DNA of 64,000 nucleotides from Bacteroidota bacterium (GTDB taxonomy: Bacteria > Bacteroidota > Bacteroidia > Bacteroidales > JAAUTT01), in contig JAUZOO010000007.1 of assembly GCA_030706405.1 (NCBI GenBank), positions 62,001 to 126,000 on the forward strand, written 5' to 3'. The notes below the pieces were generated by a model. That model worked only from the letters and a program-made list of their open reading frames with translations, searched no databases and was not told the DNA's origin. Below are positions 45,931 through 47,292 of the stretch, in pieces (position 1 is the first letter of the stretch; each line of letters opens with the position of its first letter). The position numbers and the translations under genes are program-made.

Positions 45931-46220
45931 GTTTTATGTATCCTGACCTTTTTGAGTGAAAAGAAAAAGCCACCTCAGGTTTTAAAAACCTAGGAGTTTT
46001 CCTTTTAAGATGAACAGACTCCAAAGGAGTCAAATGATTTTCATTCCATCAATTTTCCTTTACGAAACGCCATCTCTCCAAAACTAATACCCTAAATCCC
46101 GTAGGTTATTCATACAACAAAGTTTCTGTTTGGCAAAATTCTATTGCTGGCGGGGGCTATTAAAATTCCATCCGAGGTATTTCCGATGCAGGATATAGGA
46201 AGAATATAAAATATTATCAT

Positions 46221-46488
46221 ATCCGATATTTGGGATATTAGATAAACCTAAATTTTTGGGTAGTCCGCCATTTGGGATATTGATTAATTTAAAAATTATC
46301 TATAATCCGCAGTTTGGGATTTAAGATAATTCAAGAAATAATTGAAATCCCAAAGTGCGGATTTAAGTTTATTCCAGAGTTAACTAATATCCCAATGTAC
46401 GAAATAGTGATAATTCTATGTTAAACCTATTTCCGAAAGTTGGGACTATTATTCAACAAAAGTTTATTCACGATTTGTTATTTGGGAT
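46221..46488 (+). repeat. Seven-site array, exact 42-bp period, before DUF6261 gene
   Basis: The 16-bp site ATCCGnnnTTTGGGAT starts at 46221, 46263, 46305, 46347 (inverted), 46389 (inverted), 46431 and 46473, always 42 bp apart. The third and fourth copies differ at one base only. The second is near-perfect; the fifth, sixth and seventh are weaker in the ATCCG half but keep TTGGGA. The site is roughly palindromic (ATCC...GGAT), so its centre is in register whichever way it points. Intervening 26-bp spacers are AT-rich and differ, apart from a loosely shared ATTAGATAA flank. The array ends 45 bp before the ATG. Confidence 0.85.
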
Positions 46489-46533: not shown

Positions 46534-47292
46534 ATGGATAAAATTGAACCTGTCTATCTCCATAACATGCGAAACGGCGAACATCTTCAGTTTATGTCAT
46601 CCGCCGATAAGTTAATCGCAACTTATTTATCGGAGCTACCCGCGCTGGATGGTTTGTATCCTGCATTTAAATTGGCGCTCGATACCGAAAGCGCAACAAT
46701 CCAAACCATGCGCGGAAGCATCAAATCCGAAACCATTACCGGCCTAAACACGCTTCGGGTACAAACCTGGAGCGCCCTGATTGCCCGAATTAAGTCGGCA
46801 ATGCTTAGCCCACTGGCCGACGAAGCCGAAAGCGGATGGCAGCTAAAATGCACCATCGGTCAGCATAGCAATCTTCGTATCCACACCATCGATTCACGGA
46901 GCTCCATAATCAGTGGCTTTATCAGGGAGATGCAGAAGCCGGAACTTGCGCTTCATGCCCGAAAAATAAACATCACCACATTGGTTGAGGAACTAAAAAA
47001 TCAAAACGAGCAGTTTTTGGATTTAATGATGGAACGCACCAGCGAATTGGCCGACCGCAACAGTGGCGATGTGCGCGCCGTTCGCAGCCTCATCGACCCG
47101 GCTTATGTACAAATTGTTGGCCGGATAAACGCAGCCATCGTGCTCGGCTTAGCCCGGCCCGAAACTGAAGCGTTTGTGGCCAAGCTCAACGAACACATCC
47201 GCTATTACAAATTAGCCCTCGCCACCCGACGGGGCCGCAGCCGCAAACGAAGGGAAATGAAGGAGAGGGTGAGTGAAGAGGGAAAGGGGTAA
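46534..47292 (+). CDS. DUF6261-type protein of unknown function
   Basis: This 252-residue, mostly alpha-helical protein has no signal peptide or membrane segment. It resembles the DUF6261 proteins found in many Bacteroidota, often in several copies per genome; the assignment is from overall pattern and is not certain. The C-terminus is strongly basic (ATRRGRSRKRREMKER), which could bind nucleic acid. The coding strand is richer in C and G at third positions than the neighbours. It stands alone behind the seven-site array and ends in a terminator. Confidence 0.75.
   Translation: MDKIEPVYLHNMRNGEHLQFMSSADKLIATYLSELPALDGLYPAFKLALDTESATIQTMRGSIKSETITGLNTLRVQTWSALIARIKSAMLSPLADEAESGWQLKCTIGQHSNLRIHTIDSRSSIISGFIREMQKPELALHARKINITTLVEELKNQNEQFLDLMMERTSELADRNSGDVRAVRSLIDPAYVQIVGRINAAIVLGLARPETEAFVAKLNEHIRYYKLALATRRGRSRKRREMKERVSEEGKG

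Follow-up and report, generated by a model that had tools for sequence, protein, structure and literature searches.

What holds a row of near-palindromic DNA sites exactly 42 bp apart in front of a gene encoding a DUF6261 protein, and does the arrangement belong to one locus or to the gene family as a whole? The question is raised by the window, the whole 64-kb stretch of DNA analysed here, which comes from a Bacteroidota genome (G000). The initial annotation of the window placed seven site starts at uniform 42-bp steps ahead of a DUF6261-type gene; starts, steps, and gene assignment all proved correct, and the near-palindromic nature of the site was borne out. The features of the locus (L004) are as follows, the sites being read from the sequence and their mismatches to the motif ATCCGnnnTTTGGGAT counted by eye.

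46179 to 46194, plus strand: degenerate eighth copy, with only the right half (GGAT) in the 42-bp register
46221 to 46236, plus strand: dyad site 1, ATCCGATATTTGGGAT, exact (0 mismatches)
46263 to 46278, plus strand: dyad site 2, 1 mismatch
46305 to 46320, plus strand: dyad site 3, exact (0 mismatches)
46347 to 46362, minus strand: dyad site 4, turned in place, 0 mismatches when read on the opposite strand
46389 to 46404, minus strand: dyad site 5, inverted, 3 mismatches
46431 to 46446, plus strand: dyad site 6, 3 mismatches
46473 to 46488, plus strand: dyad site 7, 2 mismatches
46534 to 47292, plus strand: DUF6261 gene, 252 aa (Pfam PF19775, E 8.9e-26)

Three of the seven sites, one of them inverted, fit ATCCGnnnTTTGGGAT exactly, and the other four carry one to three mismatches. 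As sites 5-7 differ from the motif at 3, 3, and 2 positions, they appear partly decayed. The inversion of the fourth and fifth copies noted earlier was recovered, both sites being turned in place with the register kept. In the 600 bp upstream of the gene, autocorrelation at lag 42 rises to 0.68 (100-bp window), while the maximum across all lags 12-62 in 100 Markov shuffles was 0.53. Within the 64-kb window, the array is the sole place where autocorrelation reaches at least 0.55 (140-bp window, lags 12-129). Tandem Repeats Finder reports nothing; the array is therefore no plain tandem repeat, as had been argued from its differing spacers. Yet these spacers retain a weak similarity by eye, which makes an old tandem origin likely. 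The encoded protein departs from the family at five positions, with N72, V76, S112, R122, and S123 in place of D, D, G, E, and T, respectively, which occur in 63-85% of 121 aligned members. Because five common family residues are absent and the array is partly decayed, the window copy may be losing function.

Arrays of this kind precede DUF6261 genes in general. In the 600 bp upstream of 129 DUF6261 genes, drawn in three samples, the best period was 40-43 bp in 122 (31/33, 59/64, and 32/32), and the periodicity exceeded the gene's own shuffles in 116 (26/33, 58/64, and 32/32, with 100, 20, and 20 shuffles per gene, respectively). An array at 0.55 or above was found upstream of 114 of the 129 genes and downstream of four. 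The proposed association of array and gene family is thereby upheld, arrays being present before most other DUF6261 genes and their regularity not being reproduced by shuffled DNA. At 13 of the 129 genes, an array above control was absent. These counts exclude L060, which falls under the family cut-off, and retain L048, which has a run of N upstream and was scored as having no array. By eye, the DUF6261 gene of L054 (L085, G423:C12:320400-336400) lies between cas9-like and cas1-cas2-like genes and has no 42-bp array.

The repeated units differ from gene to gene. Each of the five DUF6261 genes of G000 has its own array with a distinct unit and, read by eye, unit sequences vary among paralogs, recent duplicates excepted, so the window motif is not universal. 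Of the expectation that the motif would accompany DUF6261 genes genome-wide, the part concerning 42-bp-type arrays stood; ATCCGnnnTTTGGGAT itself does not follow the family and forms arrays in G000 at the window and only one other place. The family is patchy, being found in 12 of 395 genomes at the phylum level (11 above the family cut-off), 7 of 395 at the class level, and 45 of 393 at the order level. Expansions reach 38 copies in G588, a 4.3-Mb single contig, and 33 in G672; the wide genome searches scored at most nine candidates per genome, so that copy numbers taken from them are lower bounds. Only two of the 38 genes lie between 1.6 and 2.69 Mb on the G588 chromosome; should the contig begin at the origin, this would amount to a depletion near the terminus.

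Across 82 arrays, the number of units is about six (5-95% range 3.9-8.9), and the median distance from array end to start codon is 116 bp. Among 708 intervals of up to 90 bp, 609 measure 41 or 42 bp and 59 measure 21 bp; these arrays were pre-selected for lags of 40-43 bp, and the figure describes exactness inside arrays and not the choice of lag, which is supported by the best upstream period of 40-43 bp in 122 of 129 genes. Spacings of 41 or 42 bp also account for 150 of the 166 intervals in 33 arrays whose spacers have diverged. Without selection, indels are expected at such spacer divergence. That the pitch stays exact although the spacers have diverged so far supports selection on array spacing, which agrees with the suggestion in the initial annotation that site position is under selection. 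For example, L141, L148, and L156 keep a palindrome of 16-20 bp at exact pitch between unrelated spacers, and the palindrome centre of L046 is flipped in place like window sites 4 and 5. Dyad statistics were computed on arrays at 0.55 or above only (82 of the first 97 genes). Here, 34 of the 82 arrays have a dyad above all 20 column-permuted controls, the other arrays having none above control, and in 27 of the 82 the second-best dyad falls at half the pitch, compared with 4.1 expected. These half-pitch arrays are two-fold symmetric as a whole, with dyads every two helical turns. A coding reading was also considered, as a step of 42 bp corresponds to 14 codons and one frame runs uninterrupted through many of the 42-bp arrays; the open frames were taken as incidental, 41-bp arrays being equally common. 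A search for a promoter between array and gene returned TAnnTTTG within 120 bp before the start codon in 8 of 82 genes, plus weak AT-rich k-mers.

The sites recur at a distance from the genes. Whole-genome censuses of five sites in three genomes, namely the window site (arrays on C19 and C2) and the sites of L136, L156, L049, and L005, gave two arrays in all five cases, one before a DUF6261 gene and one elsewhere, sharing site and pitch. Outside its two arrays, the window motif gave 43 hits, including one isolated exact match, against 19 for a control pattern, and the L005 site gave three isolated two-mismatch hits. The L136, L156, and L049 sites had no genome-wide hits with up to one mismatch outside their two arrays. 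When the cis array of a pair is compared with its trans array, identity amounts to 0.67-0.83 in the best 18-bp core and to 0.31-0.52 over the remainder. Because the cores are more alike than the rest, both arrays of a pair appear to be held to one specificity.

Further arrays were found in 20-kb stretches picked by hand, which do not form a random sample. In G588 and G000 these were scattered and for the most part distant from DUF6261 genes; elsewhere they came from the beginnings of contigs with low numbers. Twenty stretches of G588 contained 22 arrays at lags 41-42 and six at lags 20-22, and one of the 22 adjoins a DUF6261 gene. Of the 21 orphan arrays, nine scored above control in matching an array from this genus, two by a narrow margin; a tenth match (L212) was confirmed by exact census, and 11 have no DUF6261-array match. 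One trans array per gene would give about 3.5 in this sample for the 38 genes; as 10 matched, the rule of two arrays has exceptions unless some of the matches are spurious. At lags 40-43, the stretches of G033 and G741 contained two arrays and one array, respectively, and each of the three has a counterpart among the DUF6261 arrays of the genome it lies in; none was found for a 21-bp array in G741 (L254). Since 11 of the 21 G588 orphans and L254 are without a match, the arrays are not exclusively tied to DUF6261. G000 gave one 40-43-bp array in 400 kb, which has no match among the DUF6261 arrays compared and lies between convergent genes at a 42-bp pitch (L221:14142-14412, G000:C5). In G579, which has DUF6261 genes, no 40-43-bp array was found in the 123 kb sampled. 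The DUF6261-free genomes G003, G012, and G034 gave no array at lags 40-43 in 313.5 kb sampled, and two weak hits at lags 21-22, at 0.55.

For 21 orphan arrays with a mechanically called ORF on both sides, the gaps are convergent in nine cases, divergent in six, and tandem in six. As gaps of every orientation are occupied, the placement of orphan arrays does not look like promoter control. Two G588 orphans, L194:11830-12216 and L201:16407-16674, have a 21-bp sub-period, a common site family, and no match among the DUF6261 arrays compared, a hint that array pairs may also serve another family of genes. Elsewhere in G588 (L195:4183-5436), a gene for a 209-aa protein with no Pfam match resembles DUF6261 genes in being preceded by a 42-bp-pitch array.

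The DUF6261 protein itself offers few clues from homology. Pfam identified DUF6261 (PF19775) in 102 of 102 members, with otherwise weak, sporadic hits in one or two members each, and recognised no DNA-binding family, including HTH or RHH families, in these members. PADLOC, NCBIfam, and PHROGs gave nothing useful for DUF6261, a search for related loci found no relative of the window protein, and a literature search on DUF6261, PF19775, or such arrays found no description. Using AlphaFold2, the L001 paralog was confidently predicted to be all-helical (pLDDT 95.9, pTM 0.77; alignment of 102 of 108 non-redundant proteins), and the window protein was modelled from 13 sequences with pLDDT 89.0 and pTM 0.56. 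The similar solved structures listed are generic helical bundles with Z up to 10.4, below the value of about 13 that is the tool's level for helical bundles, and there was no DNA-binding match among those listed. PDB profile matches to four-helix bundles (cytochrome b562, Tet4 variant; E down to 4e-4) are weak and were taken as compositional.

Orthologs allow gene and array to be followed together. Comparison of the 38 genes of G588 with 30 of the 33 in G672 gave 26 reciprocal best pairs. Pitch is identical in 21 of these 26 pairs, and in 18 of the 23 where both arrays reach 0.55, and the palindromes often change symmetrically, as in L141/L180 and L142/L182. When the substitutions in 12 ortholog pairs whose sites changed were profiled against those in seven whose sites are conserved, no clear hot spot stood out that would mark a specificity-determining DUF6261 segment.

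Taken together, these observations point to an undescribed, address-like DNA-binding system with paired arrays. In the reading that we tentatively prefer, and which we hold to be a little short of an even chance, a private dyad, repeated at four-turn pitch on both a cis and a trans array, is recognised by DUF6261 or by a partner. The array would be a feature of double-stranded DNA with dyad protein sites every four helical turns, so that bound dimers would align on one face of the helix, and part of the arrays would add a second class of dyad at two turns. Each DUF6261 paralog would have its private dyad sequence, a cis array upstream of its gene, and, judging from the five counted cases, one trans array. 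DUF6261, or a partner given specificity by it, could then coat both arrays as an oligomer; at the cis array, this would control its own gene, and the oligomer might either bridge the cis and trans loci or control the trans locus. The sequences themselves establish the array and its pitch, dyads in many arrays, the link to DUF6261, units that vary among paralogs, and a site and pitch common to cis and trans arrays; a protein reader, its identity as DUF6261, oligomerisation, autoregulation, and bridging are inferred from them. The filament- or scaffold-forming DNA-binding protein envisaged in the initial annotation fits this geometry, while fold searches with the putative reader gave no DNA-binding match among those listed. 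Two points speak against the preferred reading: a DNA-binding fold could not be recognised in the protein, and roughly half of the orphan arrays sampled in G588 lack a matching DUF6261 array. Further observations weigh in the same direction: above-control arrays are missing at 13 of 129 genes, above-control dyads are limited to 34 of 82 arrays, orphan arrays occupy gaps of every orientation, 123 kb of G579 gave no 40-43-bp array despite its DUF6261 genes, the one array in 400 kb of G000 is unmatched, and no protein segment was seen to vary with the site. More specifically, it could be speculated that DUF6261 paralogs are sequence-addressed chromosome tethers, whose oligomers on private arrays would pair two loci, one next to the paralog's own gene and the other far away, and so provide dozens of independently addressed long-range contacts per genome, a proposal that we regard as doubtful.

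The same two counterpoints, the missing DNA-binding fold and the unmatched half of the G588 orphans, would be expected if a separate host DNA-binding protein read the arrays, with DUF6261 merely a regulated target or effector behind one of them. In L050 and L053, from two related genomes, the DUF6261 array directly follows the end of a gene that by eye looks like an XRE-type regulator and could encode such a reader; a remnant of the tail of an XRE-type-looking gene was also seen in L061 and L066. However, a single reader is hard to reconcile with paralogs of one and the same genome having different units, and the three sampled DUF6261-free genomes have no 40-43-bp arrays. Nor does a partner gene recur, as none was noticed by eye among translated ORFs nearest to 33 DUF6261 genes. 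A blastp comparison of array neighbours with the ORFs of 42 loci gave one homologous pair (33% identity, beside the L198 and L201 arrays), which looked like a common enzyme family, and Rfam on six loci returned tRNA only. On balance, a separate reader seems somewhat unlikely.

Another possibility is that DUF6261 drives its own family of palindromic repeats, the trans arrays being spread copies. This follows the logic of REPIN/RAYT (REP-associated tyrosine transposase) systems: each RAYT gene adjoins an extragenic palindrome cluster of its own, related palindromes occur at other places, and a genome can contain several independent gene-and-cluster pairs (PMC3116915). Like these, DUF6261 genes have their own palindromes adjacent (upstream arrays in 114/129, a dyad above control in 34/82), and the arrays are intergenic. 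Within one genome, L061 and L066 moreover display an array and most of its gene duplicated as a unit, with a 972-bp match at 81% and no match in the flanking sequence compared. In contrast to the RAYT system, DUF6261 is predicted to be all-helical, and the 21 Pfam families listed for the 102 members include no Y1/HUH transposase family, a weak TnpV hit in one member being the only transposase match. The DUF6261 arrays also keep a narrow 40-43-bp pitch and number two per site in the five cases, unlike the hundreds of dispersed doublets of REPINs. As spacers diverge while site and pitch stay, the pattern looks like constraint and not recent copying, and dispersal of this type is considered unlikely.

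Could the array instead be read as RNA? Type III toxin-antitoxin loci (ToxIN, CptIN, and TenpIN) have tandem repeats upstream of an endoribonuclease toxin gene with a Rho-independent terminator between them, and their repeat RNA forms a pseudoknot that inhibits the toxin (PMC5086642). DUF6261 loci resemble these in having a tandem array of ~40-nt repeats upstream of a single gene, with units that differ between paralogs, and in L050 and L051 the arrays reach 15-24 bp from the start codon. The evidence from folding falls on both sides, as both strands fold better than column-permuted controls but about equally so (z of -3.33 for sense and -3.13 for antisense; 60 of 105 arrays). A compensation test on 58 arrays was likewise ambiguous: compensated double changes inside arrays number 101 compared with 37.9 expected if the arms vary independently, yet they make up 101 of 258 double changes, near the one third expected for random pairs, and are outnumbered by 592 single uncompensated changes. 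Dyad mismatches on the sense strand comprise 189 G.T and 244 A.C in 82 arrays, and 141 G.T and 185 A.C in a second count of 58 arrays; there is thus no excess of G.U-type mismatches, and the small A.C excess runs opposite to the sense-RNA expectation. Mismatch type, strand folding, and the palindromes flipped in place (window sites 4-5 and L046) speak against an RNA reading. A simple scan for a stem plus T-run found terminators between array and gene in 33 of 105 loci, compared with 32.4 in shuffles, and fold searches for an endoribonuclease toxin fold gave only generic helical bundles among the matches listed. Without terminator enrichment or an RNA strand signature, and with trans arrays and dyad units, DUF6261 loci differ from type III systems, and a role as RNA is deemed quite improbable.

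Passive, functionless tandem repeats arising from slippage and quasi-palindrome correction would account for the near-identical tandem units of L098 and L152 but are very improbable as a general explanation, given the upstream bias (114/129 against 4/129 downstream), the narrow pitch range common to unrelated unit sequences, the 41-42-bp spacing of 150/166 intervals even in diverged arrays, the cores shared more than the rest by cis/trans pairs, and the absence of 40-43-bp arrays from the 313.5 kb sampled in DUF6261-free genomes.

Two other known systems may be compared with the preferred reading of a private dyad on paired arrays. Iteron/Rep systems and the ParR-parC and TubR-tubC centromeres have binding sites arrayed in phase ahead of the gene that encodes their binding protein. 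DUF6261 loci likewise have phased sites upstream of the gene for a presumed binding protein, and the comparison shows how a filament or pairing model could work. They differ in that no replication or NTPase gene was found by eye to recur near 33 DUF6261 genes, and in having 38 paralogs on one chromosome with no recognised HTH or RHH family. The short palindromic repeats and differing, constant-length spacers of several arrays (L141, L148, and L156) also recall CRISPRs. However, the repeats measure 16-20 bp, part of the arrays have a second dyad at half the pitch, and the neighbour lists, read by eye, contain no cas genes apart from the cas9/cas1/cas2-like ORFs beside the array-less L054.

If arrays and DUF6261 proteins form matched sets, each would reveal the target of the other, a single genome could offer as many as dozens of natural protein/site pairs whose sites are readable from the sequence, and PF19775 would gain its first functional handle. 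In our judgement, the evolution of protein-DNA specificity, helical phasing, and long-range chromosome contacts would then become directly testable in a bacterial group in which these subjects have received little study. The preferred reading, if true, would also explain a class of regular arrays that can be mistaken for CRISPRs. Finally, an arrangement around another type of gene was observed in L077:6200-7450 (G033:C9), where an IS200/IS605-type transposase gene (NCBIfam) has 43-bp-pitch arrays of CCCCAGCCTGAAGGCTGGGG on both sides and, together with these arrays, adjoins a DUF6261 gene that has its own array.
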